From contig CAJOFY010000010.1 of NCBI GenBank assembly GCA_905233945.1, positions 1-64,000 of the forward strand: a stretch of DNA of 64,000 nucleotides, written 5' to 3'. How positions within the stretch are numbered: position 1 is the stretch's first letter; each line of letters starts with the position of its first letter. This document shows, piece after piece, positions 13,225 through 48,712 of this stretch. The position numbers and the translations under genes were made by a program. This DNA comes from an uncultured bacterium (GTDB lineage Bacteria > UBP6 > UBA1177). The notes under the pieces were generated by a model. That model was not told the origin of the DNA and did not search any database. It was given only the letters and a program-made list of their open reading frames with translations.

Positions 13225-13538
13225 CCTTGGTAAAGCCTTAAATCGGCAGACTCAAAATTATTCCTGTTGACTTTGATTTTTTTTGGATTAAAAACAGTCT
13301 TGTCTTAGGTTCTCGATAATTGATGCATGGAGATTTTACCGGTTCTGTCGCGAGGCGGATACCTCATTGGCAAATACATCACGGGCAGTGGTGGATCGGT
13401 AAACAAGCCGGCGCTCGTTTTAAGCAGTTGTTTTCGGCTTGAGGGGCTTTTGCAGGTTGTCAAAGACTCTTTTCCCCGCACGAAATTATCAAAAAAGTTT
13501 TTTATAAACATTCTATCGCACTGATGGCGGGGGTTAAA
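13225..13538 (+). other. Intergenic region before orphan ORF
   Basis: This 314-base stretch holds a possible promoter, TTGACT (13267) with a 16-bp spacer to TAAAAA (13289). It also contains a 65-codon open frame (13327-13524) that lacks a ribosome-binding site and resembles nothing known to me. It may be the eroded left edge of the accessory array. Confidence 0.3.
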
Positions 13539-15155
13539 ATGGATTGTCTTTCTAAATTTAGTGAAATTAAAGAAAGTATCGTCAAATGTTTGCTGGAAAA
13601 GCGTTCGGAAGAAGACTGGAAGAAATGGGTCGACGAATGGATCATAGATATTCAGGATTTGTATGGAGTCGCAGAACATATAATAACTAAATCCCCTTCC
13701 GCATTTCCTGACAGTTTGTACTATATTCTGGCCGGTTTTTTGAACGATACTGACTTTTTGAAATCCGCTCTGCAAGAGAAACATCTGAATCCTGTAATTT
13801 ATTTTGAGCTACTTGAAGAATTGTCAGACACAGGCTTTGCCTGTCTGCGCGACGATGCAAAAAAAGAAGTTGCTGGGATCCTCTTTGAATTTAAAGAATT
13901 TATTGATCAAAGCTATCGTTGCCGCGGAATAAGCTATGAGGAGGTAAATAAAAAATTCCTCTCTTTGATAAAGTCGCTTGATCCCGAATATGACGTGACA
14001 GATATCCTCAGGAGCATTGCGGCAATGATGATAAGAGATACTGAAGTGAAAAATGAGAAGGATCTTTTCGAAGTAACAGGCGGGGTGTGCGCATGGAATT
14101 TTATAAACAGCTACAACTGTCTGGAGTTTCTGTATGTCGACGGTGTATTTAATGAAAAGAAATTTGATGAGATAAATTCATTTTTCTACAAAAACTTCTT
14201 TCGTGAAAAAGTACTCAATAGCGAGTGCTTTAAAAAACTTCCGGAATTTTTTCAAAAGACAGTCATTTTCCTGCAGATCGGAGGTTTTAAAAACGGTGAG
14301 CTTCTGTCCGAACTCGGAATCGATAACGATGATTTGAAAGAGTATTTGAAAAAAGAGATTGATAACTTTCTACTTGAGCTCAAGAAAATTGCCGGAAATG
14401 CAGGAAAACCCTCCGATTACTATGCCGGAGAATCCCTATCCCAACAATATTGGTTATCTGACCCGGAATCGTATCTTGTGACACAGATCTTTAACAGATC
14501 TATCTCGTTTCTGAAAAAATATTCCGGATCATGGAAAGCGCTGAAACCGATGCTCGCCATTTTCAGAAGCCTTAAGAAACAGGCGTATCATATGTGTCTG
14601 CAGCGACGGGAAATCTACTTATACCCATGGGCTTTCGTGCCAGTCAGTATAACTCAGCTTTTGGGCTCCATGGAGGAGAGTGAAACTAGGGAAGTGTGCG
14701 CTGAGTGGTTCGAATATCTCGGAAAGCAGCTGCGTTCGGCTGATGATTTCGAAGTGAAAAAACGTACTGAAAATCCGGAACTAGTTCAGGAAAAGTTCAG
14801 GAATGGCTACGACATAAAAGTGATCGAACCGCATCCTGTATGGCGGGAAGCATACTGCGAAGCGGCTGGCGATCTGCGAGTAAATTTAGGCTTTGAAAAA
14901 TGCAGGATATTTAAACACCTGCAAAAATATGATATTGATGAGAATGTGAGAAAGGCGGCAGGCAAAACTCTAGAACGTGTTGAGAAAATCAAGGAAAAGT
15001 TCGATTCTACTTCAAGAAAAAGAGCACTTCTCAACGCATGGTGGTGGTACAGAGTCGCGCATTTGAAAAGCCTGAACATTGATTTTGACTGGGTGTCGGC
15101 ACAGGACCGCAAGAGGAAGGAGGTCAGTTTCTACTTTCCGAAAGATTTCTTTTAG
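13539..15155 (+). CDS. Orphan helical protein, unknown function
   Basis: I do not recognise this family. The product is about 538 residues and predominantly alpha-helical; there is no signal peptide or membrane segment. The C-terminal third contains an HEAT-like stretch (EAAGDLRVNLGFEK, then VRKAAGKTLERVEKI). The last 60 residues are rich in Trp and basic residues. The ATG at 13539 follows GGGGG; an in-frame ATG five codons earlier is possible. It ends 18 bases before the first copy of the thioesterase-tail repeat, the same arrangement as the other blocks of the array, suggesting it arrived as accessory DNA. Confidence 0.7.
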   Translation: MDCLSKFSEIKESIVKCLLEKRSEEDWKKWVDEWIIDIQDLYGVAEHIITKSPSAFPDSLYYILAGFLNDTDFLKSALQEKHLNPVIYFELLEELSDTGFACLRDDAKKEVAGILFEFKEFIDQSYRCRGISYEEVNKKFLSLIKSLDPEYDVTDILRSIAAMMIRDTEVKNEKDLFEVTGGVCAWNFINSYNCLEFLYVDGVFNEKKFDEINSFFYKNFFREKVLNSECFKKLPEFFQKTVIFLQIGGFKNGELLSELGIDNDDLKEYLKKEIDNFLLELKKIAGNAGKPSDYYAGESLSQQYWLSDPESYLVTQIFNRSISFLKKYSGSWKALKPMLAIFRSLKKQAYHMCLQRREIYLYPWAFVPVSITQLLGSMEESETREVCAEWFEYLGKQLRSADDFEVKKRTENPELVQEKFRNGYDIKVIEPHPVWREAYCEAAGDLRVNLGFEKCRIFKHLQKYDIDENVRKAAGKTLERVEKIKEKFDSTSRKRALLNAWWWYRVAHLKSLNIDFDWVSAQDRKRKEVSFYFPKDFF

Positions 15156-15173: not shown

Positions 15174-15228
15174 CTATTTCCCGCTTCTGATTATCTCGTT
15201 GACTCTGTTCACGAAAACTTCGGGGCAG
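15174..15228 (-). repeat. Thioesterase-tail repeat, copy A (55 bp)
   Basis: Read on the minus strand this encodes CPEVFVNRVNEIIRSGK and a TAG stop, matching the last codons of the thioesterase at 24440-24846. Homology ends abruptly at 15228. It is the shortest and most diverged-looking copy. Confidence 0.8.
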
Positions 15229-15358: not shown

Positions 15359-15491
15359 TTCGGAATTTAGTCGTTTTTGCGAGTAACCTGCGATTCAAAA
15401 ATTTGCGGTTTTATGATTGTTTTTATTGCAAAAAATAGAATCTAAGTATAATTGTTTCGTAATTTAGTTGTTTTTGCGAGTAACTTCCGAC
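15359..15491 (+). repeat. 35-bp direct repeat upstream of ATPase
   Basis: A segment starting TTCGGAATTTAGTCGTTTT (15359-15393) recurs as TTCGTAATTTAGTTGTTTT (15456-15491) with few mismatches. Each copy has TATAATTGTT a short way upstream, so the promoter region of the broken ATPase looks internally duplicated. The surrounding 15230-15500 is AT-rich with no other feature seen. Confidence 0.55.
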
Positions 15492-15500
15492 GGAGGAAAA

Positions 15501-16783
15501 ATGATAGTCGAGCGTGAAAAATATCTTCAGGCTTTACTGAAAAAAAGGTGGAACGGTCAAATAAAGATTGTGACAGGCATCAGAAGATGCGGGAAAAGTA
15601 CGCTTCTTTTCGGGCTTTTCCGACAGGCTCTTATTGATTCAGGTGTCAGGCAGTCTCAGATTATAATTTTGGAGCTTGATTCCGATGCAAATGAAAAATA
15701 TCGGAATCCTGACGCTCTTTCGGCGTATATCCGTCAGAAAATCATAGATCCGCGGGAAAAATATTATGTTCTGCTTGATGAAATCCAGTATGCAATATCG
15801 AAGGAAGAACTGAAAAACAAGGATAACCCGGTAAAATTATACAGTGTTTTGAACGGCTTGCTGCATCTTGGGAATGTTGATGTCTATGTGACCGGCAGCA
15901 ATTCAAAAATGCTGTCGAAAGATATTTCCACCGAGTTCAGGGGACGCGGTGATGTCATCAAAGTTTATCCGTTTTCGTTCAACGAATATTACCGCGCTTC
16001 CGGCAAGGACAAATTCGATGCATACAACGAATATGTGATGTTCGGCGGAATGCCTTATCTTTTGAATCTGGATTCTGACAATGAAAAACACGAATATTTA
16101 GCCGGACTTTTTGAAGAAATTTACTTCAAGGATATCGAGGAACGCTATGATGTGGCGACACCGGGAATTTTGCGCGAACTTGCATCAGCTCTCTCATCTT
16201 CAGTGGGTTCGCTCACGAACGCAAGCAAAATTTCCAAAAGCATAAAAACAGCTAAAAACATCAGCATTGATCCTGAAACTATCGGGAAATATTTGAATTA
16301 TCTGACAGACAGCTTTTTGTTCAGCGAGGCCGCAAGGTATGATGTCAAAGGAAAAAAATATTTTGAATATCCTTACAAATATTACTCGGTTTAAGAAATG
16401 CACGGCTCGGTTTCAGGCAGCAGGAAGAGAACCATATTCTGGAAAATTTGATTTACAACGAGCTTTTATGCCGCGGTTGTATTGTTGATGTCGGAGTCGT
16501 TCCTCTTGTTGAAAGGGATAATGCCGGCAGGCGAACGCAGAAAAACTGCGAAATTGATTTCGTGGTCAGAAAAGGAAGTAAGCAATATTACATACAGTCA
16601 GCTCTTTCCATAGATGATCCTCTAAAAGAAGCAACGGAACTCAGACCTCTTCTCCGGACAAAAGATTCTTTCAAAAAAATTGTTGTCTCAAAGTCATACG
16701 GTAAAAGCTGGATCGATGAAAACGGCATTCTCAGGATAAATCCGATTGACTTCCTGCTTGATGAAGAGAGCCTTGAAAGGTGA
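15501..16783 (+). pseudogene. AAA_14/DUF4143 ATPase, frameshifted
   Basis: The N-terminal part (15501-16394) begins after GGAGG. It shows the P-loop variant GIRRCGKSTL, the Walker B-like YVLLDEIQ, and the family block VTGSNSKMLSKDISTEFRGR. Translation then stops after KYYSV, but the downstream frame continues the same protein (RQQEENHILENLIYNEL to the TGA at 16783). Comparison with the intact paralogue at 23187-24437 implies loss of ten bases near 16388 between two TCGGT direct repeats. ATPases of this family are widespread in multiple copies and of unclear function; accessory or conflict roles are suspected. It precedes repeat copy B by 79 bases. Confidence 0.85.
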
Positions 16784-16862: not shown

Positions 16863-17060
16863 TTATTTCCCGTTTCCGATTATCTCGTTGACTTTGTTCA
16901 CGAAAACTTCGTGGCAGACGAATTCAGACTCCATTTTCGAGATGTTGAAAGCCATCTGGGTGCTTTCGGCTCTTGTGGTCAACTCTCCTTTTTCATTGAA
17001 GATTTCGTATCCTCGTATTCGAGGAGGCTTGAGACTATTTTCGCGTTTTCGCCGAAGTAG
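16863..17060 (-). repeat. Thioesterase-tail repeat, copy B (198 bp)
   Basis: This is the longest extra copy. It reads on the minus strand from the YFGENAKIVSSLLE region to the stop codon of the thioesterase. It shares with the resident gene (24440 onward) the same frame break between LLE and the YEIFNEKGEL block. It has six more bases at that point, so the resident gene appears to carry an additional six-base deletion. Confidence 0.85.
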
Positions 17061-17216
17061 ATTTAAAGTATTCTGCTGTTTTGCTCAGAATGACTCGATT
17101 TTCTCAAAACTGTCTTCCCAAAATTTTTTTGACTTGACCAACGGCGAGAGTGAGCGCCCGTCTCTTCAAAAGGCGGGCGAAATATGCTCGCTACGCTGCG
17201 CAAAATGCAACCTCCT
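17061..17216 (+). other. Intergenic region with REP-like fragment and hairpin
   Basis: TTTTGCTCAGAATGACTCGA (17082-17101) resembles the dispersed CTTCGCTCAGCATGAC-type repeat that also appears inside the restriction gene at 22.55 kb. CGCCCG (17154-) pairs with CGGGCG (-17179) around a 13-base loop. No gene is seen. Confidence 0.35.
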
Positions 17217-18752
17217 TTACTCCGCGTTCCTCACACAACGTACAGAGTTGTTTATAGTCGTATAGAAGTCGATCTTATCTAAGATGCTCAAGCCCAAGTC
17301 GAATTGCACAACCCACGCGAAGCTGGTATCGTAGACGTAGGTAGAGGAAGACCAGAAATCGCCAGTCTGCATATCCGGGGAATATGAAGTTTCATAGTTT
17401 ATCAAAGATGCCAGTTCATTCTTGTTAGGAAGTCTCCAGTCACTATAACCAGCGTACGTTGAATTTTCACAGTGTGTGAGTTCACTATCCCACGACAGCG
17501 TGCTTGTCGAAGAATATTCTTTCTGCCACATAAGACCGGTTCTCAAGTCAGTGACTGTTTTGCCATCCGACGATGTCGTAAAATCACTAGATACGGCTGG
17601 TTCATCTCTTCTCCGCTCACACAAAGAACATTGAGAGTGTTGGTTTTTGAGAAATAACTGTCATTATAACCGTAATAAAATCCGGCAGCCGGATAAAACA
17701 CATAAGCATAGCTTGTGTTGCCTTTGACTTCGTTGTTTGTCCACAATTTTGTGCTGTCTTCTGTCGGCATTCCGGTGAAATTCGAGTTTATTGCTGGATT
17801 ATTTTTGCTGTTGTCAACAATTGTCAGGAACTCAAGCGGATTCGGAACACGCCAGTTGCTCTTGCCGCCGTAATTCGAGCTGTTGAGCTCGTTGCAGTGC
17901 GTGTTTCTGTCTGCCCAGGTATAGGTGCTTGACGAAGGCGATTTTTCCCAGGTGAGACCAGTGTTGTTGTCTATAACTACATTTGAGGATGACGAGAAAC
18001 TCTGCGGCGTGCATTTGCCAAGGCTCGCATAATATGCATCCTGACCGAAATAAATATTACTTTCGGAAGTAGGGCAGGTGATAACTGCATTTGACGAAGA
18101 TGTCTTGTAGCATTTATCTTGCCCCGTGCAGATGTTGCCGAGAGTAAGACGGCGTTTGTCTCTGCAGCCTTTCTCTACTCCCCACCAGTAATAATTCTCT
18201 TCGCATTCGCAGGCATATTGAGTTTCAGTTACCGGGTTGCATATTCCGGTTGAATTCGGAATATTACACGGGTTATTCAGGCATAGATTCTTCATGCATT
18301 TCTTTGAAGGTGGATCCCAAACATAGTTATTTTCGCATTCGCAGGTATATCTATCCCAGCTGTTTCCAATGCAGGTTCCGGTTTCACCGATACTGTTGCA
18401 CGGATTAGGATCGCACGGAGTCTGTGGATAATCGTTGTCCGGTTCAGTGTCGCCATTGTCGGGTGCTGTATCGCCGCCGTCAGGTGTCGAATCACCGTAG
18501 TCGGATGTTGTGTCGGTGTCATCTGGCTGTTCTGGCGTAGAATTGCCGTTGTCGGGCTGTTCAGGTGTCGTATCGGGATTTTCATGTCCGGAGTCTGACG
18601 GTTCTGAATCATCAGGCACGCTGTCTGCCGTATCTTCGTCAGTCACGGTTTAGCCAGTGTCGGTTGTGTCACCGGTTTTAGAGCCTCCGCCGCAAGAAAT
18701 CATCAAAAACATTGCCGCAAGAACGGCAAAAACAATAAAGAATTTTTTCATA
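17217..18752 (-). pseudogene. EGF-like/DUF1566 lipoprotein, degraded
   Basis: The start at 18752 follows GGAGG and gives a signal peptide with lipobox (MISC, then GGGS). An in-frame TAA at 18652-18650 interrupts the acidic Thr/Pro/Asp linker after about 33 codons. The reading frame continues (GTG at 18646) through heptad-like repeats (DGGDTAPDNGD) and two EGF-like Cys modules (CDPNPCNS..., CLNNPCNI...). A first DUF1566 (Fib-succ-major-like) domain with NTGLTWEK and NWRVPNPLEF follows. A frameshift near 17600 then separates a second DUF1566 domain (RTGLMWQKE, DWRLPNKNELASL) that ends at 17217. It is the only large minus-strand gene inside the array. Confidence 0.85.
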
Positions 18753-18989: not shown

Positions 18990-19015
18990 TAGTGGCTTTT
19001 GCAGGAGGTGCAAAA

Positions 19016-19342
19016 TTGAAACTGTACACCATTGAGGATTTCAGGAAAATCAACAAGTTAGAAAATATCGTTATTTCTTTGCACGGACAACTCAGGCTCA
19101 TAGAACGCAATATTTCTGTCGAAGATGTTATGAATGCGATTGATAACGGAGATATTATCGAACAATATCCTGAGGATTTTCCTTTTCCGAGCTGCCTGAT
19201 ATTGGGACTTACAATAAAAGGGCAATATATTCACGTTGTTGTAAGTATGAACGAAACAAAAATTTATCTGATTACAGCTTATGTTCCGGATCCTGCGAAA
19301 TGGGAATCTGACTTAAAAACACATAAGGAGGCAAAAAAATGA
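19016..19342 (+). CDS. DUF4258 family toxin-like protein
   Basis: The 108-residue product matches DUF4258: LHGQLRLIERNISVEDVMNA, then GDIIEQYPEDFPFPSCLILG, HVVVS and LITAYVPDPAKW. Members usually pair with a YgiT/MqsA-type zinc protein, as here, and are thought to be RNase-like or MqsR-related toxins. The TTG start at 19016 is chosen because AGGAGG precedes it at good spacing; a GTG at 18992 lies within the leader. The gene overlaps its partner by four bases. Confidence 0.8.
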   Translation: MKLYTIEDFRKINKLENIVISLHGQLRLIERNISVEDVMNAIDNGDIIEQYPEDFPFPSCLILGLTIKGQYIHVVVSMNETKIYLITAYVPDPAKWESDLKTHKEAKK

Positions 19343-19566
19343 AATGCATTCGCTGCGCAAACGACACTTACAAAAGCACGACAACGGAAGCTGTTGAACT
19401 TGGTTCCGGTGTTCTCGTCATCCGTAACATCCCGTGCTACAAATGTACTGTATGTGACGAGATTCATTTCACAGGTGATGTTGTAAAACGGCTTGAAGAG
19501 ATTATTTCCTATGCAAAACAGCATATTCAGGAACTTTCTGTTGTAAACTTCGAAAACGCTGCTTAA
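19339..19566 (+). CDS. YgiT-type zinc-finger antitoxin-like protein
   Basis: This 75-residue protein has two CxxC pairs (MKCIRCAN and CYKCTVCDEIHF), the YgiT/MqsA N-terminal zinc module. It has only a short tail after it, so it probably lacks the HTH domain of full-length MqsA. The start overlaps the toxin stop in an ATGA. It ends 11 bases before repeat copy C. Role as the cognate antitoxin is inferred from pairing. Confidence 0.8.
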   Translation: MKCIRCANDTYKSTTTEAVELGSGVLVIRNIPCYKCTVCDEIHFTGDVVKRLEEIISYAKQHIQELSVVNFENAA

Positions 19567-19577
19567 AATTCGGCAGT

Positions 19578-19688
19578 TTATTTTCCTTTTCCGATTATCT
19601 CACTCACTCTGTTCACGAAAACTTCGGGGCAGACGAATTCGGATTCCATTTTCGAGATGTTGAAAGCCGGTTTAATCTTTGTATTTAC
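19578..19688 (-). repeat. Thioesterase-tail repeat, copy C
   Basis: The minus strand encodes AFNISKMESEFVCPEVFVN, then RVSEIIGKGK and stop (19578-19668), matching the thioesterase tail. Beyond that it shares about 20 further bases (GGTTTAATCTTTGTATTTAC on the plus strand) only with copy D, not with the resident gene. Confidence 0.85.
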
Positions 19689-19799: not shown

Positions 19800-22706
19800 A
19801 TGAGCACTTTGCGCTGTAAAACAATGACTATGGAAGAGCGGAAAGCGCTTCTCTCAAAACTTGCGGAGCAGTTCCGCGAACACGAAAACTTCTACATGAG
19901 CGGTGATTTTGTTGAGAGCGAATGCCGCTCGAAATTCATAGATCCGCTGCTTGAATGTCTTGCATGGGATGTGAAAAACGAGAAAGGGGCGCGTTATGAC
20001 AGGACAGAGGTGATTACTGAAGACCGTGTTGTGATTGCAGGTCAGGTGAAGCATCCCGACTACACGCTCTGTTACGGCGGCGAGCGGAAAATCTATGTCG
20101 AGGCGAAGCAGCCGAGTGTTAATCTGAAGACGAATCCAGAACCTGCGCTTCAGGTGCGCAGATATGCCTATTCAAGCAGAATGCCGATTGCGATTCTCAC
20201 CGATTTCCAGGAGTTCGCAATCTATGATACCCGCATAAAACCCAAGCCCAACGACTCTGCGGCGGTTGCAAGAATCGACTATATGACTTATCAGCAGTAT
20301 CTTGACCATTTCGACGATCTTTTCAACAGAATTTCGTGGAATGCCGTCGATCTCGGTAAATTCGACACTTATTGGGAAACTTCGCGGGACAAAAAGGGGA
20401 CGGCGACTGTTGACAACGATATCCTTGCGATGATTGAAAAGTGGAGAATCATTCTTGCGGAGGACATTGCGCGGCGCGGCGGTGAAATTGACGAGTTCAA
20501 TCTGACGGGTGCTGTGCAGAAAATCATCGACCGTATCCTGTTCCTGCGAATCTGCGAGGATAAGATGATCGAGCCGAGAAACTCCCTGAAAAATATTGTC
20601 GAAAAGAAGCAGAATATTTATGAAAAACTGAAAAAGCTCTTTTCGGCTGCCAACGATAAGTTCAATGCCGGTCTTTTCGCGACCGACAAATGGCTCGATT
20701 CGCTTGAAATTCAGGATAAAACGCTTTCAACAATAATCAAAGAGCTTTATTTCCCGGTATGCCAGTATGAGTTTTCAGTAATTCCGGTCGAGATTCTGGG
20801 TTCGATTTACGAGCGTTTTCTGGGGAAAATAATCCGCTTTACCAGAAAGACAAAAAGCGGGCACAGCCTTGAAATAATCGAGAAACCGGAAGTTCAGAAG
20901 GCGGGCGGAGTTTACTATACGCCTGATTATATTGTGAAATACATCGTGAAAGAGACAATCGGCAGAAAAATTGAGGGAAAAAAGCCGGAAGTTGTGGCAA
21001 AAATGCGTTTCCTTGACCCTGCCTGCGGGAGCGGCAGCTTTCTTGTCGGCGCGTATCAGTATCTTCTGGACTGGCATTTGGACTGGTATCTTAATAAAAA
21101 TGTGAAAAAAGCCGAAAAACAGGGCAAAATATACAAGGATGCCGACACAAAGGAATACAAACTTTCGATTGAGGAAAAACGGGCGATTCTGCTGAACAAC
21201 ATTTACGGAGTTGACATCGATTCGCAGGCGGTCGAAGTGACGAAACTTTCGCTTTTCCTGAAACTTCTCGAAAATGAAGGAAAATCACTTTCTCCTGAAG
21301 GACAGATGAACATGTTCCGTGCCAGCGATCTCCGGGCGAAAATCCTCCCGAGCCTGAATGACAACATCAAATGCGGAAATTCGCTTATCGGAAGCGACTT
21401 TTACAACGACAGGAACCTGCTTCTTTTTGACATGAAGGAGCAGCGTAAAGTCAATGCTTTCGACTGGGAAAAGGAGTTTGATCTCAACGGTTTTGACTGC
21501 GTTATCGGAAATCCGCCGTATGGCGCGTATTTTTCGCAAGATGAAGAGAGCTATTTGCGTAAAAAATATCCGAATCAATCTTATCAGCTGGATTCTTATC
21601 TGATCTTTACAGAAAAAGTGGAACAGTTGGTAAAGGAAAACGGTTTGGTCGGTTTTATTATGCCCAACACATGGCTTTCGACTATTTTTGCAGGCAATAT
21701 GAGAAAATATATTTTCGGGACATACATTGTCAGGAACATAAATCACTATTCGTTTTTCGTTTTTAAGGATGCTACTGTCGAAACAGATGTCTACATTTTT
21801 GAAAAAAGTGCAGGGAAAACCGCTGACAATAACGTTGAACTTGCAATCATAGGTTCTTCAGGCATTTTCCAAGCCTATAGTATTCCTCAAAAATCGCTGA
21901 TTGAAAAAGAAGGTGTTCCGATTAACATATACGAATATAAAAACGGTAGCAGTATAAAAGAAAAACTGGCGGATTTTGATAAACTTGGAGACTTGGTTCA
22001 AGTTATTCAGGGAACAAAACCGTTCCAAAAAGGAAAAGGAAATCCTCCGCAGACAGAAAAAATTTTGGAAGAAAAGCCGTTTGTCAAAGAGTTCAAACAA
22101 GACGATACGTTTTTACCTTGTCTTAGGGGAAATCTGATTCATAGATATTCAATTTTCTGGAATGAAAATTACTACATAAGTTATGGTGATTGGCTGGCTG
22201 AGCCGCGATATTCCGCGCATTTTGATTGTCCGGAAAAGCTGCTTGTCCGTCAAACAGGTGATTCCATTATTGCGACATACGATAATCAGCAGTTCATAGC
22301 TCGAGACAATCTTTATGTTATTCGTGACGACAAGAAAAAAATAAATTTAAAATTTCTGCTTTGTATTTTGAATTCTTCGTTTATAACTTGGTATTACAGG
22401 ACTTACATAAATCCGGAAGAAGGAAAAGTTCTGGCGCAAGTCAAAAGAACTCATCTGCTTCAACTTCCGATTCCAAATATTGCTCGCAAAGAACAGCAGA
22501 AACTTGCTGATCTTGCCGAGACAATGATTAAGACGAAAAGATGTTTCGCTCTCGCTCAACATGACGAATCTGGCAAACCGATGTCCGAAGCGGACAAAAA
22601 ACTGCTTGAGCAGCGTATCGCGCTGATTGATTCCCAAATAAATGCAGCCGTGTATAAACTTTACGGACTGACCGAGACTGAAATCAAAGTGGTGGAAGGG
22701 AAATAG
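19800..22706 (+). CDS. Type IIG-like restriction-modification enzyme (Eco57I-like)
   Basis: This single 968-residue protein should both cut DNA and methylate adenine. The N-terminal domain has a PD-(D/E)xK-like core (HPDYTL at about 85, YVEAKQPS at about 100). The N6-adenine methyltransferase domain has motif I LDPACGSGSF (about 405) and motif IV NPPY (about 570), followed by a TaqI-like target recognition region. Start ATG follows CGGAGG. The C-terminus contains a peculiar in-frame insert encoding RCFALAQHDESG, which matches a known type of dispersed intergenic repeat, so specificity or stability there may have changed. It ends 5 bases before repeat copy D. Confidence 0.88.
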   Translation: MSTLRCKTMTMEERKALLSKLAEQFREHENFYMSGDFVESECRSKFIDPLLECLAWDVKNEKGARYDRTEVITEDRVVIAGQVKHPDYTLCYGGERKIYVEAKQPSVNLKTNPEPALQVRRYAYSSRMPIAILTDFQEFAIYDTRIKPKPNDSAAVARIDYMTYQQYLDHFDDLFNRISWNAVDLGKFDTYWETSRDKKGTATVDNDILAMIEKWRIILAEDIARRGGEIDEFNLTGAVQKIIDRILFLRICEDKMIEPRNSLKNIVEKKQNIYEKLKKLFSAANDKFNAGLFATDKWLDSLEIQDKTLSTIIKELYFPVCQYEFSVIPVEILGSIYERFLGKIIRFTRKTKSGHSLEIIEKPEVQKAGGVYYTPDYIVKYIVKETIGRKIEGKKPEVVAKMRFLDPACGSGSFLVGAYQYLLDWHLDWYLNKNVKKAEKQGKIYKDADTKEYKLSIEEKRAILLNNIYGVDIDSQAVEVTKLSLFLKLLENEGKSLSPEGQMNMFRASDLRAKILPSLNDNIKCGNSLIGSDFYNDRNLLLFDMKEQRKVNAFDWEKEFDLNGFDCVIGNPPYGAYFSQDEESYLRKKYPNQSYQLDSYLIFTEKVEQLVKENGLVGFIMPNTWLSTIFAGNMRKYIFGTYIVRNINHYSFFVFKDATVETDVYIFEKSAGKTADNNVELAIIGSSGIFQAYSIPQKSLIEKEGVPINIYEYKNGSSIKEKLADFDKLGDLVQVIQGTKPFQKGKGNPPQTEKILEEKPFVKEFKQDDTFLPCLRGNLIHRYSIFWNENYYISYGDWLAEPRYSAHFDCPEKLLVRQTGDSIIATYDNQQFIARDNLYVIRDDKKKINLKFLLCILNSSFITWYYRTYINPEEGKVLAQVKRTHLLQLPIPNIARKEQQKLADLAETMIKTKRCFALAQHDESGKPMSEADKKLLEQRIALIDSQINAAVYKLYGLTETEIKVVEGK

Positions 22707-22711
22707 GAGTT

Positions 22712-22822
22712 TTATTTTCCTTTTCCGATTATCTAATTAACTCTGTTCACAAAAACTTCGGGACAGACAAATTCAGACTCCATTTTCGAGATGTTGAAAG
22801 CCGGTTTAATCTCTGTATTTAC
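22712..22822 (-). repeat. Thioesterase-tail repeat, copy D
   Basis: It matches copy C in extent, including the extra GGTTTAATCTCTGTATTTAC tail. On the minus strand an internal TAG interrupts the thioesterase tail (RVN, stop, IIGKGK), so this copy is not under coding selection. Confidence 0.85.
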
Positions 22823-23186: not shown

Positions 23187-24437
23187 ATGATAATTAAGCG
23201 CGATAGATATCTCAAACAGTTGACGGTGGCAATGGGTAACGGAATGGTTAAAATTGTCACCGGTATCCGGCGGTCAGGAAAATCATTTCTGTTGATGACT
23301 TTGTTTCATCAGTATCTTACAGGTCAGGGAGTTCCTGAAAATCACATTATTGAAATATCTCTGGATAACCGCAAAAACAAACGGTTGCGCAATCCTGACG
23401 CTCTTTTGAAATATATCGACAGCAGAGTGCTGCCTGACGGAGAGACGCACTATGTGATTCTTGACGAAGTACAGCTGGTGGATGACTTTGTGGAAGTGCT
23501 TCTGAGTCTTATGCAGGATAAAAGACTGGATGTCTATGTTTCAGGGTCGAACTCAAAATTTTTATCAAAAGATGTCGTTACCGAATTCCGCGGCAGGGGT
23601 GACGAGATTCACTTGTATCCGCTTTCTTTCAGCGAGTATTATGCCGCAGTCGGCGGTGACAAGCACGATGCCTGGAACGATTACTACACTTACGGCGGTC
23701 TCCCTCAAGTTCTGCAGTTTGAAAGCGAGGAAAAGAAGAGCAAATATCTGGCAGATCTTTACGAACTCACCTATTTAAAGGACATAATTGAGCGTAATCA
23801 CCTTAGAAATGTTGATGGTTTGCGTACATTGATCCGCGTTCTGGCCTCAAACATCGGTGCGCCGACAAACCCTAAAAGAATAAGTGACACTTTCCAAACC
23901 GTTGAAAACATAGCTATGAAAGCCGGTACAATCCGCGATTATCTTTCATATCTTCAGGATGCTTTTCTTATAGAGGAGGCATTGCGTTACGATGTCAAAG
24001 GACGGAAATATATCGGCACAGAAACAAAGTATTACTTCTCCGATGTGGGAATTCGTGCGGCTATTCTGAATCTTAGGCAGCAGGAGGAGACGCACATAAT
24101 GGAAAATATTATCTACAACGAACTTCGTATGCGTGGTTACAGTGTTGATGTCGGGATGGTTGAAACATGGACAACTAGTGCCGGCAACAAGACAGCCCGC
24201 CTGCCGCTGGAGATTGATTTTGTAGTCAATAAAGGGGCTGAACGCATTTATATTCAGTCTGTGTACCAGATGCCGACAGGCGAAAAAGAAGCGCAGGAGA
24301 AACGTTCTTTGCTGAACACAAATGACAACTTCCGCAAAATAATTATTGTCGGTGACGACATCAAACGCAAAACAGATGAACAGGGTATAATAACAATCGG
24401 TTTGTTGGATTTTCTGTTAAATCCAGACAGTATTTAA
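23187..24437 (+). CDS. AAA_14/DUF4143 ATPase, intact
   Basis: The 416-residue protein has an N-terminal AAA domain with P-loop GIRRSGKSFLL, Walker B-like YVILDEVQ and the block VSGSNSKFLSKDVVTEFRGR, followed by the DUF4143 C-terminal domain (LPLEIDFVVNKG, nuclease-like Asp/Glu pattern). GGAG precedes the start. It is the intact relative of the broken copy at 15501-16783. Molecular function is not established for the family. Its stop is only 2 bases from the end of the thioesterase gene, which is transcribed toward it. Confidence 0.88.
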   Translation: MIIKRDRYLKQLTVAMGNGMVKIVTGIRRSGKSFLLMTLFHQYLTGQGVPENHIIEISLDNRKNKRLRNPDALLKYIDSRVLPDGETHYVILDEVQLVDDFVEVLLSLMQDKRLDVYVSGSNSKFLSKDVVTEFRGRGDEIHLYPLSFSEYYAAVGGDKHDAWNDYYTYGGLPQVLQFESEEKKSKYLADLYELTYLKDIIERNHLRNVDGLRTLIRVLASNIGAPTNPKRISDTFQTVENIAMKAGTIRDYLSYLQDAFLIEEALRYDVKGRKYIGTETKYYFSDVGIRAAILNLRQQEETHIMENIIYNELRMRGYSVDVGMVETWTTSAGNKTARLPLEIDFVVNKGAERIYIQSVYQMPTGEKEAQEKRSLLNTNDNFRKIIIVGDDIKRKTDEQGIITIGLLDFLLNPDSI

Positions 24438-24439
24438 AA

Positions 24440-24846
24440 TTATTTCCCTTTTCCGATCATCTCATTGACTCTCTTCACGAAAACTTCAGGGCAGACGAAT
24501 TCAGACTCCATTTTCGAGATGTTGAAAGCCATCTGGGTGCTTTCGGCTCTTGTGGTCAACTCTCCTTTTTCATTGAAGATTTCGTATCTTCGAGGAGGCT
24601 TGAGACGATTTTCGCGTTTTCGCCGAAGTAGAGCGGTCTGACGTATTTGATTTTGATGTCGGTGACGGGGAAAGCGTAGCCCGATTTCACCATTTCGGTG
24701 TAGTTGTAGCCGATTTTGTCGAGCAGTGCGCATCGTCCGATCTCCATGTATTTCACGTAGTTGCCGTGCCAGACTACGTTCATCGGGTCGAGGTCGAAAA
24801 AGGCGACTTTGAATTCAGTTGTTTCCGAGCAGTAAACGTTAACCAT
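24440..24846 (-). pseudogene. Hot-dog acyl-CoA/ACP thioesterase (ApeK-like), frameshifted
   Basis: The start at 24846 follows GGAGG and overlaps the acyltransferase stop. The N-terminal part reads as a YbgC/4HBT-type thioesterase (FFDLDPMNVVWHGNYVKYME, with the conserved Asp). After SSLLE near 24586 that frame runs to a stop at 24556. The family-typical C-terminus (RYEIFNEKGEL, TTRAESTQMAFN, to IGKGK) continues in another frame to 24440. About 16-22 bases appear to be missing at the join. Repeat copy B carries the same break, so it is unlikely to be a sequencing error. It is the last gene of the Ape-like operon, and its 3' end is the sequence repeated through the array. Confidence 0.8.
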
Positions 24847-25813
24847 TTTCACCTCCGTTTTTTTGCCAGAAATCAAAGAAATTATACCACTGGTTCGGGT
24901 ATTTTATGCAGTATTTTTCAAGAGTTGCAGCGTATTCGCCGCAGAGTTCAACGATTCTTTTTTTGGTTTCGGCTCTACCGCAGTTAAAATCGGTTTTCGC
25001 TTTCTCGACAAACATGTTGTTCCTGGGAAAGAGAGCCGCGCTTTTTGTGCGAAGGCCGAAAACGAAATATACAGGAGCTTTGAGAAGCGAGGCGATAAGG
25101 AATACTCCGTAGGGAAATTCGGCCGTTCTCCCTAAAAATTCGCGCTCTATGAAGCGTTTTCCGCTGTGTGCCGAGGTTCTGTCGCCCGTGATCACGACAA
25201 GTCCGCCGTTTTCAACTTCGTTCTGAAGCGCGAAAATCGTTTCAGGGCCTATCGAATCTGGGTCGATGACGTTTGTAACGACTTCGGGGTTTATCTCTTT
25301 CAAAGTGTTGTTGAACTGACTGGTGACTTTCATCGACATGATCGTCGTGACGCTGATTTTTTTGGAAACTCCGGTCTCGCAGAAACTTGAGAGGCTTCGC
25401 ATGAGCTCGATGTTTCCGAGGTGAGAGCCGATTAAATAGGCTCCTTTGCCGCTTTCAAGAAGCGAGATCAGATCCTGCAGGTCGTCATCGTGTTTTATCA
25501 GGTTTTTGTATTTGGTTTTTCCAAGCCATCCTTCCATTTTCTCCACGACTGAAAGGGCGAACGAAAGAATCGTGAGATAAGAATTTATTTTTTTCGGAGT
25601 TTCGCCGTTTGTGTAAAGCTGCATCTGTTTTTGGAAATTTTCTACATGCTTTCTTGCACTTTTTGCGCAGAGAAAAAAGAAAAAACTTACTGGAAATACG
25701 ATAAGATGAACTAAAAATGCTGGGAGAAACTTTATCAGAAGCAGCGTGAATTTAAGCGGTCTGCTGGTGGAAACAACTTCCTGACTGTCACTCCAGTGCC
25801 CGTTTCCGCTCAT
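24839..25813 (-). CDS. Lipid A-type (LpxL/HtrB-like) acyltransferase
   Basis: The 324-residue protein transfers an acyl chain at the inner membrane. One N-terminal hydrophobic segment (about 23-50) anchors it. The acyltransferase motif HLGNIE fits the HxxxxD/E catalytic pattern, followed by the GGLVVITGDRTS block. In aryl-polyene clusters such an enzyme moves the polyene acyl group onto a membrane carrier. It overlaps both neighbours in the operon by a few bases. Confidence 0.85.
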   Translation of the reverse strand: MSGNGHWSDSQEVVSTSRPLKFTLLLIKFLPAFLVHLIVFPVSFFFFLCAKSARKHVENFQKQMQLYTNGETPKKINSYLTILSFALSVVEKMEGWLGKTKYKNLIKHDDDLQDLISLLESGKGAYLIGSHLGNIELMRSLSSFCETGVSKKISVTTIMSMKVTSQFNNTLKEINPEVVTNVIDPDSIGPETIFALQNEVENGGLVVITGDRTSAHSGKRFIEREFLGRTAEFPYGVFLIASLLKAPVYFVFGLRTKSAALFPRNNMFVEKAKTDFNCGRAETKKRIVELCGEYAATLEKYCIKYPNQWYNFFDFWQKNGGENG

Positions 25814-26559
25814 TTTTTTCTCGTAAGTGAATGGTAAATTATAACCGGAAGACGTGGTATCATTCCGAGGTAAAGGCGGGTGTAAGTTTCGGAAATTCCT
25901 GCATTATCCCAAAACAGGCGGAAGTTTGAAATTCCGTCTGTGGGGTATGAAATTTTAACGGGTTCAGAGATTATCGGCACATTTGCCCAGAAAAGGCGCA
26001 CCAGAATTTCGATGTCAAACCCCATTCTTTTGTTGATGTAAAGCGTGCGTTTCAAAGTTCTCACAAAAGGGGCGACCGGATAAACACGGAAACCCACCAT
26101 TGCGTCTTTTATCGAGCGCGAAAGTGTGACAATGTGGATCCACATATTTGCAAATTCACGTCCCCGGACGCGGCTTTTCGGGGCATTTTCATCGTATTCG
26201 GGGCATCCGCAGATGACAGAATCGGGATTTTCGCGCGAAAGTTCAAGAAACCGCGGGATTTTCGAAGTGTCGTGCTGGCCGTCGGAATCAAGCTGGAAAA
26301 CGTGGGTCAGTCCCATTTCGGCAGCCTTGAGAACACCCGACGATACAGCTGCACCTTTGCCGCCGTTTTTCTCGCGGACTACTAAAACCGCATTTTTACT
26401 GTTATCGACTGCTTCTTTTATAAGTCTTTGATTTTCCTCGTCGTTTCCGTCATCGACCGCAATTATCGGAAAACCATATTTTTCAAGTTCCGCCAGAACG
26501 CCTTTCAAGGCCGCTCCGTGCCTGAAAACCGGGATGATAAAGCCGAATTTTTGTTCCAT
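25810..26559 (-). CDS. Family 2 glycosyltransferase (ApeJ-like)
   Basis: The 249-residue protein has a GT-A nucleotide-sugar fold. It shows FIIPVFRHG at the N-terminus, VDDGND, and the metal-binding DSDGQHD motif, with the C-terminal SYPTDGISNF typical of dolichol-phosphate-mannose synthase-like and Ape-cluster enzymes. It overlaps the acyltransferase gene by four bases (ATGA). In related clusters the glycosyltransferase and acyltransferase are one fused protein; here they are separate. Confidence 0.85.
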   Translation of the reverse strand: MEQKFGFIIPVFRHGAALKGVLAELEKYGFPIIAVDDGNDEENQRLIKEAVDNSKNAVLVVREKNGGKGAAVSSGVLKAAEMGLTHVFQLDSDGQHDTSKIPRFLELSRENPDSVICGCPEYDENAPKSRVRGREFANMWIHIVTLSRSIKDAMVGFRVYPVAPFVRTLKRTLYINKRMGFDIEILVRLFWANVPIISEPVKISYPTDGISNFRLFWDNAGISETYTRLYLGMIPRLPVIIYHSLTRKK

Positions 26560-26927
26560 TACGCCTCGTGGACTTCAAAAGTGCCGGTCGAATAGACCAT
26601 TTTCTGCAGTGTAAAATCTGAAATAGTGTAGGTGAGGGAGGGTTTTGTGCTGTCGTATTTCATTTCGAGAAGCGCAACTGTACCCGGAAGGATCGGGGAG
26701 GAGAACTTTATCCGCCTGATGTTGGGAACAAAGCGTTTCGTGCCGAAGTATATCCCTGCGAGTCTCGTCACGATTTCAAACTGCGCTACAGCCGGAAGAA
26801 GTTTGAACTCAGGAAAGTGACCGTCAAAGAAATCAGATTCTTCTTTGATATTGAGTTTTAATATAACATGCTGGTTTTCTTTAAGAATTTCTTCTTCAAT
26901 AACTATGCCGTGAAGATCTTTTTCCAT
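26559..26927 (-). CDS. 3-hydroxyacyl-ACP dehydratase, ApeI-like
   Basis: This 122-residue hot-dog fold protein contains FFDGHFPEFKLLPAVAQFE, the FabA/FabZ-type active-site block with catalytic His. In polyene synthesis it dehydrates 3-hydroxyacyl-ACP after each extension. It starts at the stop of the ApeGH gene, preceded by GAGGTG. Confidence 0.85.
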   Translation of the reverse strand: MEKDLHGIVIEEEILKENQHVILKLNIKEESDFFDGHFPEFKLLPAVAQFEIVTRLAGIYFGTKRFVPNIRRIKFSSPILPGTVALLEMKYDSTKPSLTYTISDFTLQKMVYSTGTFEVHEA

Positions 26928-28921
26928 TATTTCACCTCAAACAAAGCTGCGATTTCCTCTTTGTGTTTTTTTCCCTGGATGTCAGTCGGAAGTTTGTCCA
27001 GAAAGCGCCATTTTTTTGGAATTACCGTGTTTTCGAAGTAATGCATCAGAAAGTCGTGGAAATATTTGTTTATCGCATATTTTTCCTTGCCGGAAAACTC
27101 TGCTTTGCCTTTTTCGTTGAGGACAAGAGCCGCCGCGAGATACTGCCTGATGTCGTTTGAAAGGGCGATCACTTTTACATCTTCGACAAGTCCGCTTTCC
27201 AAAAGTCTGTTCTCGACTTCGGTAAGAGATATGCGCTTTTCCTCGATTTTGACGATCGAATCGCTGCGTCCTTTGAGGAGAAATTTGCCGTTTTCGAGCA
27301 TCTCAGCCATGTCAGCCGTCGCAAAACCTGCCGGATCCTTGATGTAGGGTGAGATTATGCGGAGGCATCCGTCATCACCCAGCCAGATTTTCGCGTTGTC
27401 GAAAGGAGTCCAGACAAGTCCGTCTTTATCCTGCATTCTGTATGCGATCCCAGAAGTTTCTGTGCTGCCATATACTTCAAGCGGGTAAATTCCGAAAAGT
27501 TTGTTTGTTTTTACCGCCAGTTCGGGACTCACCGCGCCGCCGCTTGTGAAAAGCCACGGATCGCGCATATTCAGCTTTTCTTCCATTTCGACGGTGCGTT
27601 TGAGAAACGCCGGAGTTGCCACAATCAAGTATTTTTCATCGTCAAGTGTCTCAAATTCTTCAGGAAATTCGATCCTTTTGCGCCTGAAAGGTGTCCCTGT
27701 CGCAAACGGAAGCGAAAAACCGAAAAGAAATCCGAAAATGTGGTGCTGGCTCACTGTCGAAACGAACTTCCTTTCTGAGATTTTATCGAGCCATTTCGAA
27801 ATTATGAAAGCGTTGTCCTCTTCGAATTCCTTCATTCTCTGCGGGACGGCTTTCGGTTTTCCGGTAGAGCCAGAAGTGAAGAGGAAAATGCGCGTCGTTT
27901 CGCCGTTTATTTCGGGAGTTTGTTCAATCTCTTCTTTTGGTGGTTTTTCTGATTTCTCAATAATTTCAGGGATGTAAAGTGAATTCTGAACTCCGGCGTC
28001 AGTTAAAAGTTCCATTCCGGGAAGAAGTGCTTCGGCAAGGAAATTTTCCGAAATATTCTGAGTCAGATGAACCGCTTTCCGGCACTGTAGAAGGGCAGTG
28101 AACGTGACACCGAAATACCAGAAATCGCCGCAGTGGAGAATGTATGAATCGGTTTGGCGGCTTTCAATGAACTTTCTCATTTTTGCCGTGTCGGCAAGGA
28201 AGTCGCCCCACGTTTTGAAAATGCCGTCAGACCATTTTCCGTCGTAGCAGACAACTGCGTCTTTTGCTCTGGACGCGGCTTTGAACTTTGTTACAGGAAA
28301 AACTTTTACCATTTTTTTATCCGCAAATTTTCTCACAATAAACTCAGCAGCAAACAAAACGCCCATAAGGATATACGATATTCCGCCGTTGTAAAGCGAC
28401 CAGAATTTATCCGCTTCATCAGGCGGAAATCCGAACAGTTTTCCGGCAAAAACCGTAAGAAGTGCAGCTGTTCCGTTGAAAATAAAGAAAATACACCACG
28501 CATAAGTCACTTTTCTGCAATAATTCTCAACACTTTTTTCGTGGAAAGAGCCTTTTATCGATTTGTCGGCAAGAGCTGCAAAACGGAAAATAATGTTCGG
28601 GCCAGAGATTAGAGTCGAACCGAAAAACATCAGTAAAATCAAATTGATGGCAACCGGATAAAGTTTAAGAAAAATAGATTCGTTTGTTAAAAAGCAAAGC
28701 AAACCGGCAAGAAAAAAGAGAAGGGAAGTCGCAAGCGGTTTCCATTCAAGGCTTTTCTCCTTTTTTTTAGCCGAAACACTTACGAAAAGCGCCGCGGCGA
28801 GAGCTATTATGCAAAGCGAAAGGAGTTTTAAAGGAAGTTTGAAAACAACTAAAAGTGCAAAAACTAAAATCGGATAAAGTGCTGAAAGAACATAGAAAAA
28901 TATCCGGAATGCTTTTTTCAT
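26927..28921 (-). CDS. ApeG-ApeH fusion: membrane domain plus AMP-ligase
   Basis: The 664-residue protein has about 210 N-terminal residues of membrane helices resembling the COG4648/ApeG membrane protein, including NGTAALLTVFAGKLFG and SLYNGGISYILMGVLFAAEF. An acyl-CoA synthetase/AMP-ligase domain follows, with the AMP-binding motif FLFTSGSTGKPKAVPQ, the core VYGSTETSGIAYR, and the C-terminal GRSDSIVKIEEKRIS. The ligase should activate an aryl or acyl starter and load it on the neighbouring ACPs. In enterobacterial ape clusters apeG and apeH are separate genes, so the fusion is notable. Confidence 0.85.
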   Translation of the reverse strand: MKKAFRIFFYVLSALYPILVFALLVVFKLPLKLLSLCIIALAAALFVSVSAKKKEKSLEWKPLATSLLFFLAGLLCFLTNESIFLKLYPVAINLILLMFFGSTLISGPNIIFRFAALADKSIKGSFHEKSVENYCRKVTYAWCIFFIFNGTAALLTVFAGKLFGFPPDEADKFWSLYNGGISYILMGVLFAAEFIVRKFADKKMVKVFPVTKFKAASRAKDAVVCYDGKWSDGIFKTWGDFLADTAKMRKFIESRQTDSYILHCGDFWYFGVTFTALLQCRKAVHLTQNISENFLAEALLPGMELLTDAGVQNSLYIPEIIEKSEKPPKEEIEQTPEINGETTRIFLFTSGSTGKPKAVPQRMKEFEEDNAFIISKWLDKISERKFVSTVSQHHIFGFLFGFSLPFATGTPFRRKRIEFPEEFETLDDEKYLIVATPAFLKRTVEMEEKLNMRDPWLFTSGGAVSPELAVKTNKLFGIYPLEVYGSTETSGIAYRMQDKDGLVWTPFDNAKIWLGDDGCLRIISPYIKDPAGFATADMAEMLENGKFLLKGRSDSIVKIEEKRISLTEVENRLLESGLVEDVKVIALSNDIRQYLAAALVLNEKGKAEFSGKEKYAINKYFHDFLMHYFENTVIPKKWRFLDKLPTDIQGKKHKEEIAALFEVK

Positions 28922-28939
28922 CGGGAAAGTTTGAAAGGA

Positions 28940-29221
28940 CTATCTGCCGTCTTCTTTCGGCAGTTCTTCGTCAGCAAGGTAGGGATGAAGCGCGTCAACG
29001 ACATCCTGAACTGTGCGGACAGATCTCAGAATCATCGGATCGATATTGCCTTTTCCTGCCGGAATATACTCTTTCATTTTTACAAAAAGATCGATTGCGT
29101 CAATCGAATCGAGGTTGAGCTGTTCCCTCAGATCAGCTTCGGGAGTGATTTTATCCGCATCAATTTCAAATTCAGCGGCTAGTATTTTTTTGAGTTCGTT
29201 GAAAATTTCTTCTTTTTTCAT
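28940..29221 (-). CDS. Acyl carrier protein 2
   Basis: This 93-residue carrier protein has the phosphopantetheine-attachment motif LNLDSIDAIDL. AAGGAG precedes the ATG at 29221; an upstream in-frame start at 29260 overlaps the previous ACP gene. It resembles ApeF-type ACPs in position, next to the AMP-ligase gene that would load it. Confidence 0.9.
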   Translation of the reverse strand: MKKEEIFNELKKILAAEFEIDADKITPEADLREQLNLDSIDAIDLFVKMKEYIPAGKGNIDPMILRSVRTVQDVVDALHPYLADEELPKEDGR

Positions 29222-29231
29222 TTCAAGCTCC

Positions 29232-29498
29232 TTATTTTGTTTCTTCCCTTGTTGCGGCAATGTATTCAGCCAATGCGTTTACAGACGCGAAATGTTTGCG
29301 GTTTTCGGCATTGTCGGACGAAAATTTGATTCCGAATTTCTTTTTGAGCGCAACTCCGAGTTCGAGTGCATCGATCGAATCAAGGCCGAGTCCTTCACCG
29401 AAAATCGGCTCACTGTCAACTATGTCTTCAGGTTTGATGTCTTCGAGTTCCAGTGACGAAATAATCACTTTTTTTATCTCGTTTTTTAATTCTTCCAT
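29232..29498 (-). CDS. Acyl carrier protein 1
   Basis: This 88-residue carrier protein has the motif GLGLDSIDALEL for phosphopantetheinylation. GAGGAAG precedes the ATG at 29498. It is the first gene of the Ape-like operon (ApeE position) and lies about 60 bases after a predicted promoter. Two dissimilar ACPs in tandem are a hallmark of aryl-polyene and related clusters. Confidence 0.9.
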   Translation of the reverse strand: MEELKNEIKKVIISSLELEDIKPEDIVDSEPIFGEGLGLDSIDALELGVALKKKFGIKFSSDNAENRKHFASVNALAEYIAATREETK

Positions 29499-29550
29499 TG
29501 CTTCCTCATTTCTAAAATCCAACAGCTGCGGATCGTTCCGCCAAAAAATT

Positions 29551-34397: not shown

Positions 34398-34426
34398 AGT
34401 ATCCTCCTTAAAAAATCAACCTTCTT

Positions 34427-34454
34427 ATTTTAAGGATATGCCGAAAAATATCAA
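34427..34454 (-). promoter_or_regulatory. Predicted promoter of lipoprotein 1
   Basis: Minus strand: TTGATA (34454-34449), a 16-bp spacer, TAAAAT (34432-34427). Confidence 0.5.
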
Positions 34455-34493
34455 GTCTTATTTGAGATTGAAAAAAGAGATCTTTTTGACTGG

Positions 34494-36245: not shown

Positions 36246-36350
36246 GAGAACCTCCAAAAATCAAAACACAAACACAAAATTATTGTCAAAATCATGAAAA
36301 AATCAAGACGGATTATCGGGATTATCGTTATTATCGATTCGCCGCCCTGT

Positions 36351-39907: not shown

Positions 39908-39940
39908 TTTTCTCTCCTTTCTTGGTTGTCAAAAATCCGA

Positions 39941-46428: not shown

Positions 46429-46448
46429 TTTCTTCTCCCTCTCAAATT

Positions 46449-47228
46449 TTATTTTCCCTTAAATTCCTCAATCTGCTGCCGGATGTTTTCGATATGAAGG
46501 CGAAGCATGAAGTCGATGAAGGTTTTTGAATTGCCGTTATCCTGAGCGTCAGCGAGAGCCTGTATGTATTCGGCGCGGTTTTCTTTTTTGACGATGCTGG
46601 GGATAACGCCGGCTTCGCGCTGGATCATGTTCATGACAAGGCGCGACATTCTGCCGTTTCCGTCAGCCCACGGATGGATCGCCGTAAGCTGATAGTGCGC
46701 TTCAAAACTGAGTTCGTAGATTTCCTGCATGTTGGCGGTTGTCATTTTTTTGCGTTCGTTATTGAGCCAGTCGCAGAAATTCTTTAGTTTTTCCGGCACT
46801 TTCTGCCATGCGAGGTAGGATTTTCCGCCGCGACCTGCACTTACGTTCAAAAGTCTGATTTCACCTTTTGCGGAGGAGAAGTCTCCGGCGAGAGTTTTGT
46901 ATTCCGAGCCTGTGTTTTTCATCACGATCGCGGCGAGGCTGCACAAAAGTTCCGGAGAAAAATCGGCGTGTTCCTTCGCATAGACAAAACTCTGCTCGTA
47001 AGCGGCTTTGAGGTCAAGGTTCATAAGGATTTCCGCCATCGGTTTTTTCGCGCTGATCCCCTCGTCAAAGAGGAGCTGGTTTTCGATTTCTGTGACAGTC
47101 GAGCCTTCTATCGCCGTGGAGTGGGTGATGATCGAATAAAGATAGAATTTGTCGTAATCAAGCTGTTCGTTGATGCCGAGAGCGATATATTCGTTGATCG
47201 TATCTGTGAGTTCTGTCAGCTTATCCAT
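46449..47228 (-). CDS. Fic family AMPylase, self-inhibited class II-like
   Basis: The 259-residue protein has the Fic active site HPWADGNGRMSRL and an N-terminal inhibitory motif STAIEGS (about 37-43), so it probably AMPylates a target only when the helix is displaced. The start at 47228 follows GGAGG. It lies between the AlbA_2 regulator and the DUF262 pair with gaps of 20-27 bases, suggesting one operon. Confidence 0.88.
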   Translation of the reverse strand: MDKLTELTDTINEYIALGINEQLDYDKFYLYSIITHSTAIEGSTVTEIENQLLFDEGISAKKPMAEILMNLDLKAAYEQSFVYAKEHADFSPELLCSLAAIVMKNTGSEYKTLAGDFSSAKGEIRLLNVSAGRGGKSYLAWQKVPEKLKNFCDWLNNERKKMTTANMQEIYELSFEAHYQLTAIHPWADGNGRMSRLVMNMIQREAGVIPSIVKKENRAEYIQALADAQDNGNSKTFIDFMLRLHIENIRQQIEEFKGK

Positions 47229-47255
47229 CTTTTCCTCCGCCAAAATCCGTGTGCT

Positions 47256-48674: not shown

Positions 48675-48691
48675 TTGCGTCTCCGTCAAAA

Positions 48692-48712
48692 TCCGCCGCA
48701 TTATACACAAAA
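48692..48712 (-). promoter_or_regulatory. Predicted promoter of AlbA_2-Fic-DUF262 operon
   Basis: Minus strand: TTTTTGTG then TATAAT (48705-48700), then GCGGCGG. The -10 context matches the promoters near 39.9 and 40.95 kb; a -35 is not clear. Confidence 0.45.

Follow-up and report, generated by a model that had tools for sequence, protein, structure and literature searches.

The operon and its boundary

The DNA analysed here, which we call the window, comprises bases 1-64000 of contig 10 (CAJOFY010000010.1) of a 2.65 Mb draft metagenome assembly in 56 contigs (GCA_905233945.1, coded G000 below) from an uncultured bacterium of the UBP6 lineage. On its minus strand a seven-gene aryl polyene (ape) operon runs from an acyl carrier protein (ACP) gene at 29522 to a thioesterase gene at 24440, and an array of accessory genes adjoins the latter. 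The order of the seven genes, their assignments and this boundary had been called in an original prediction made from the sequence alone, and open reading frame (ORF) positions together with Pfam and NCBIfam matches bear them out. The operon consists of the following genes.

29232..29522, minus strand: ACP 1 (ApeE/F-like); PF00550 E=2.5e-9; NF006617 101.5 bits, above the cut-off of 70
28940..29260, minus strand: ACP 2 (ApeE/F-like); PF00550 E=7.3e-7; NF003757 87.9 bits, above the cut-off of 65
26927..28921, minus strand: ApeG-ApeH-like gene, a hydrophobic N-terminal part followed by an AMP-binding ligase; PF00501 E=9.8e-17
26559..26927, minus strand: ApeI-like dehydratase; PF22818 (ApeI-like) E=7.8e-9, passing the cut-off
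25810..26559, minus strand: family 2 glycosyltransferase (GT), corresponding to the GT half of ApeJ; PF00535 E=4.4e-14
24839..25813, minus strand: lysophospholipid-acyltransferase-like gene, corresponding to the acyltransferase (AT) half of ApeJ; weak NF004190 match, E=2.8e-7, under the cut-off; orthologue in nine other genomes of the genus
24440..24846, minus strand: ApeK-like thioesterase, frameshifted; 4HBT_2 E=1.1e-9

The Pfam scan gave no family for the AT half of ApeJ, and the ApeG-ApeH-like gene is represented by two overlapping matches in different frames in two relatives (G008 and G013). The thioesterase has the place in the order that had been predicted for it, but it is not intact: alignment with eight relatives shows a 22-nucleotide (nt) deletion that breaks its frame near 24589, so that about 96 of 142 amino acids (aa) remain. 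A protein search of the genome for a second thioesterase of the ApeK-like kind found none, returning this locus only. Deletion of apeK in Escherichia coli is described in PMC8253772 as weakening pigmentation, with partial loss of colour. The array does begin at the thioesterase, as originally claimed; its first gene, of the DUF4143 type (23187-24437), lies 2 nt from the thioesterase stop.

The remainder of the pathway is dispersed in the same genome

The ketosynthases, ketoreductase, LolA-like carrier and exporter had been reported as missing. They are indeed absent beside the operon, but they have not been lost, since searches of the genome with ketosynthase and MMPL queries led to homologues of ApeL, ApeM, ApeO, ApeP, ApeQ and ApeR. 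ApeL, ApeM and ApeO lie with a phosphatase gene on contig 10 at 80.9-85.5 kilobases (kb), about 52 kb from the operon; ApeP, ApeQ and ApeR form a block on contig 20; and a third block, ApeB-C-D on contig 45, encodes a methyltransferase, a chain-length factor (ApeC; PF13723 E=1.2e-28) and a protein that we take from its sequence to be an acyltransferase. ApeO scores 410.2 bits against the NF006618 cut-off of 407, ApeR passes the NF006587 cut-off and ApeQ that of TIGR01831, ApeM matches the MMPL family, and ApeL is LolA2-like (E=7.8e-14, under the NCBIfam cut-off); ApeP was called solely from its position beside ApeQ and ApeR. The nearest solved structures are 6qsp and 7f28 for ApeO and 4ewg and 7f27 for ApeR; PMC8358021 identifies the first two as ApeO-ApeC, 4ewg as an ApeR homologue and 7f27 as ApeR. 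In all, homologues of B, C, D, E, F, G-H, I, J, K, L, M, O, P, Q and R were found; ApeA and ApeN were not sought.

The genome thereby holds a ketosynthase-chain-length factor pair (ApeO-ApeC), a second ketosynthase (ApeR) with a ketoreductase (ApeQ) and dehydratases (ApeI/ApeP), two ACPs with an acyl-ACP synthetase and a (frameshifted) thioesterase, and the Lol-like and RND-type export genes L and M, all of which are marks of an aryl polyene system. A single contiguous cluster, also such a mark, is not found. In E. coli the ape genes A to R form one cluster in which apeK directly precedes apeL (PMC8253772, Table 1). Gene order within each block here follows the list of E. coli CFT073 apeA-R, whereas the genes lie in four places, ApeJ is represented by two genes and the thioesterase is frameshifted. 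Judged by gene content, the operon is thus predicted to represent genes ApeE to ApeK of an aryl polyene cluster that is complete but dispersed, and the pigment is presumably still made by this organism.

The operon in other genomes of the genus

Fifteen genomes of the genus were surveyed, this one included, and a match to the AT gene was taken to mark an operon carrier, which made ten of the fifteen carriers. The five with no AT match were not counted (G001, 93% complete, and G002, G004, G007 and G010, 59-84% complete). All nine other carriers have the same seven genes and no array, the very finding that the original prediction had named as one that would speak for a native short form; thus the short form is native, and the array did not cut the operon. 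The G008 thioesterase lies partly on one contig and partly on another. The rest of the pathway is similarly widespread, with ApeO homologues in 13 of 15 genomes (matches of at least 82% identity), the chain-length factor in 13 and ApeR in 12.

Six relatives (G006, G008, G009, G011, G013 and G014) have both the ApeK and the ApeL side on one contig, and in every one the LolA-MMPL pair (ApeL-M) follows beyond the thioesterase on the same strand at a distance of 3.0-13.0 kb; in the remaining carriers, G003, G005 and G012, no one contig holds both sides. The other blocks vary in position. In G005, G006 and G014 P-Q-R is found upstream of the operon, 8.7-14.0 kb away; in G007 it comes after M-O and the phosphatase gene, and in G002 P and R come after L-M-O, where Q was not found. 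In G011 and G012 the upstream neighbour of the operon is ApeC, the chain-length factor gene, at about 1.3 kb from the first ACP, while that neighbour is presumably RarA-like here and Obg-like in G006. These differing neighbours indicate that the whole operon block has moved. An ancestral contiguous cluster was sought in the family-level genomes G015-G019 and G055, which gave partial, distant matches that did not settle the order.

Two further arrangements were seen in relatives. In G009 (contig 25, 21470-31710) ApeM is separated from ApeO by 10 kb that carry two small genes and several lipoprotein genes, a second opening of the same cluster. G012, a bin with 6% contamination, has a second, partial operon copy on contig 37, whose AT gene is 82% alike and carries an in-frame stop.

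The ApeK/ApeL gap holds variable, mostly defence-type genes

The genes between ApeK and ApeL differ from relative to relative, and in five of the six gaps they include defence-type genes by Pfam and PADLOC similarity:

G006, 7.6 kb: type I restriction-modification subunits, NYN, ToxN
G008, 3.0 kb: two lipoprotein genes only
G009, 9.4 kb: IS110, schlafen-type helicase, YhcG nuclease, acetyltransferase, L1 (see below)
G011, 7.8 kb: nucleotidyltransferase, McrB-like AAA_5 ATPase with a PADLOC REase_II match, DUF4143
G013, 13.0 kb: methylase, LmuB-like ATPase, DUF4143
G014, 11.0 kb: C5-methylase, SNF2 helicase, Vsr, AspBHI/Mrr nuclease

In G003, where the two sides are on separate contigs, a DUF4258 gene pair faces the thioesterase, and ToxN and an McrB-like ATPase are on the ApeL side; in G005 an HsdM-like gene, DUF3990 and an acetyltransferase (assigned by its likeness to that of G009) precede the thioesterase. 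In half of the ten carriers (G000, G003, G005, G009 and G012) a cargo gene facing the thioesterase ends no more than about 40 nt from the thioesterase end.

Because the gap is variable and mostly defence-type across the six relatives that show both sides, the ApeK/ApeL joint is, on predicted gene functions, a genus-wide landing zone for putative defence genes. The earlier sense that this cut site matters was therefore sound, although the array is not what made the cut. The two constant flanks with differing cargo recall core defence hotspots such as cDHS1/2 of Pseudomonas aeruginosa, described in PMC10250203 as variable defence genes between fixed flanks, often without mobility genes. Unlike the hotspots as described there, the flanks here are halves of one biosynthetic pathway, and partial copies of a flank gene lie inside the cargo. 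The open-licence literature yielded no report of a defence zone or insertions in an aryl polyene cluster, nor of one for UBP6.

Copies of the thioesterase 3' end punctuate the array

A search of the genome with the 3' end of the thioesterase gene found it five times, in four copies and the gene itself, and nowhere else; it is single in each of the nine relatives with the operon. Such repetition is far beyond chance (E from 3e-12 to 2e-81). The tail copies and the genes among which they lie are as follows.

13524..15155, plus strand: L1, a 543-aa protein; 63-64% homologues in G009 and G012
15175..15228, minus strand: tail copy, 54 nt clear; 87% identity, E=3.2e-12; decayed protein match out to 15335
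15468..16783, plus strand: second DUF4143 gene, cargo, frameshifted near 16385; tblastn match in two frames to the gene at 23187
16863..17061, minus strand: tail copy, 199 nt; 93% identity, E=2.0e-81; 16-nt deletion
17543..18646, minus strand: lipoprotein with Lcl_C domain, inside the array; PF07603 E=1.2e-24
18992..19566, plus strand: DUF4258 gene and small CxxC protein, cargo; PF14076 E=6.1e-27
19578..19688, minus strand: tail copy, 91 nt (19578-19668) plus 20 nt; 91% identity, E=7.5e-31
19800..22706, plus strand: type IIG restriction-methyltransferase, cargo; Eco57I E=3e-35; PADLOC REase_MTase_IIG E=4.3e-171
22712..22822, minus strand: tail copy, 91 nt (22712-22802) plus the 20 nt also present in the 19578 copy; 90% identity, E=2.4e-29
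23187..24437, plus strand: AAA_14/DUF4143 ATPase, cargo facing the thioesterase; PF13173, PF13635; PADLOC candidate PDC-S01 E=1.3e-116

Each tail thus closes a cargo unit, in the order L1, the frameshifted DUF4143 gene, the lipoprotein with the DUF4258 pair, the type IIG enzyme and the intact DUF4143 gene, with cargo-to-tail distances of 19, 79, 11, 5 and 2 nt for the copies at 15175, 16863, 19578 and 22712 and the gene. The Pfam scan gave no family for L1, and none was found for the small CxxC protein, which with its DUF4258 neighbour we presume to be a toxin-antitoxin-like pair. The broken and intact DUF4143 genes are 46-48% identical. Base composition of the array is slightly lower than that of its flanks, which is not decisive.

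Two details bear on the history of the tails. Alignment with eight relatives places the 16-nt deletion of the 16863 copy at the same spot as the 22-nt deletion of the gene, which suggests that the gene was damaged before this copy split off. The copies at 19578 and 22712 share 111 nt, including 20 nt that are not thioesterase and contain one mismatch, and may have arisen as duplicates when tails recombined with each other. In addition, the DUF4258 pair that faces the thioesterase in G003 is the same as that in the array (93% over 730 nt), and the match ends exactly where the 19578 scar ends.

Mosaic thioesterase genes

Recombination in the thioesterase was assessed with six triples of genomes at two split points each, the splits having been chosen after viewing windows of identity; G008, with its thioesterase on two contigs, and the partial copy on G012 contig 37 were left out of the alignment. 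Results are quoted for the G012, G013 and G003 triples and for G014 with one of its three choices of partner. The G012 thioesterase shifts from G000-like to G009-like, and the final windows, immediately past the gene, are 98-100% identical to G009; sites favouring G000 over G009 number 273:59 in GT-AT and 22:37 in the thioesterase (p=8e-12). In G014 windowed identity shifts from G009-like to G011/G006-like, and sites favouring G009 over G011 go from 222:80 to 15:66 (p=2e-19). The signal in G013 is weaker (p=3e-6).

These mosaics indicate that exchanges run through the thioesterase gene, as proposed for the integrase-free hotspots of PMC5635113, which are common and for which double crossover in flanking core genes is a leading idea. 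Like them, the present locus has a mosaic flank gene, turnover of cargo and no integrase found in the cargo, among the array proteins and those gap ORFs that were scanned (not every gap ORF was). Their model is replacement by double crossover, whereas here cargo is stacked with tail scars.

Other features of the window

A second defence-like patch at 42236-48710 has two GmrSD-type genes, a Fic gene and a schlafen AlbA_2 gene, and direct repeats of 42-94 nt lie near it at 39932, 40941 and 48688. At 32871-36257 two tandem lipoprotein genes contain repeated segments that are 73-83% alike.

A model for growth of the array, and its alternatives

We consider it probable that the ape cluster is dispersed, that its ApeK/ApeL joint is a landing zone, and that blocks are imported there by homologous recombination in the thioesterase, leaving tails behind as scars. 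A donor block would bring in cargo together with a thioesterase 3' end of its own, would cross over inside the resident thioesterase gene, and would become attached at its other side through illegitimate or tail-to-tail recombination. In most relatives new cargo would have replaced old; in this genome blocks would have been added, each displaced stump of the old tail staying as a scar between cargo units. Gene content, the native seven-gene form, the variable gap, the five tails and the mosaic thioesterases are direct observations, and we infer the order of import, the route of DNA entry and the dependence on RecA. An empty-site comparison is offered by G009 and G012, where L1 is the gene directly facing the thioesterase. 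A ComEC-like gene is present, but the family matches 10 of 14 control genomes and so says little about competence.

Several observations weigh against import of this kind. Scar ages do not follow a simple order, since the copy closest in sequence to the present gene, that at 16863, is only the second one counted from the far end of the array. Two scars share an end point and 20 nt, as a site-specific process could leave. Repeated tails occur in one genome only, a metagenome assembly, and the gene is identical to the 16863 copy over 99 nt, a length at which a false join could arise. The G008 gap has lipoprotein genes in place of defence genes, no clear switch emerges from the G003 triple (p=0.38 at one split point and 0.048 at the other), and the recombination tests were picked after looking at the windows.

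A bolder form of recombination-driven import, which we regard as tentative and rather doubtful, is that the thioesterase 3' end might serve as a portable homology tag with which cassettes stack, excise and reshuffle by RecA-type recombination, integron-like without an integrase, the thioesterase being a sacrificial anchor. Loss of such an anchor might be tolerated because it only dims the pigment, as reported for E. coli apeK (PMC8253772).

Alternatively, a site-specific recombinase, encoded elsewhere or since lost, might insert cassettes at the thioesterase 3' end. Staphylococcal cassette chromosome (SCC) elements accrete in this manner at the end of rlmH/orfX, by serial additions at a gene 3' end with repeats between units. 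The target here is likewise a gene 3' end, faced by cargo ends in one orientation, and two scars have their terminal base and 20 nt of cassette end in common. Nonetheless, we judge this unlikely. The scars differ in length (54, 199, 91 and 91 nt) and in where they end, unlike a crossover site fixed in all of them, and a fixed attachment site as sole cause was rejected for that reason. No recombinase, of the ccr type or otherwise, was found among the array and gap proteins scanned, apart from the IS110 transposase of G009. The 20 nt occur nowhere but in the two scars, at up to three mismatches in 25 contig stretches, and are thus no general cassette-end sequence. A scan of IMG/VR viral contigs for a phage origin of the tail gave no exact match to the tail pattern (such a scan would miss diverged copies), and the thioesterase mosaics fit ordinary homologous exchange.

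The first option of the original prediction, that the array displaced the second half of the cluster in this genome, is very doubtful. ApeK and ApeL are neighbours in the E. coli list of PMC8253772 and form the two sides of the gap in all six relatives, and here L-M-O is not past the array but far along the contig. However, the nine array-free relatives also end the operon at the thioesterase, so the split most likely predates the array, which largely refutes displacement; the upstream neighbours differ too, as expected if the whole block moved.

We think it highly improbable that the array is an artefact in which near-identical tails led the assembler to join unrelated pieces. The assembly is a fragmented metagenome, and one tail pair with its 99 identical nt makes an error at one junction possible, but other tail pairs share at most 34 identical nt, and 34 nt is too short to mislead modern k-mers. 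Moreover, the junction of the DUF4258 pair with a tail recurs in the independent G003 assembly, and the neighbourhood of L1 and tail recurs in G009 and G012. Least probable is the second original option, a native reduced cluster that would serve a different acyl lipid: every relative has the thioesterase as the last gene of the operon, but this option is not supported because ApeB-C-D, L-M-O and P-Q-R homologues, the remaining core and transport genes, are all present in the genome and in relatives, six of which have L-M-O close by.

Traces of single import events are, in our judgement, seldom preserved, and the four stumps of the anchor gene could allow imports to be ordered here. If import through the thioesterase is correct, the locus would show a pigment pathway prised apart by defence-gene traffic, and would help to explain how a biosynthetic cluster disperses without being lost.

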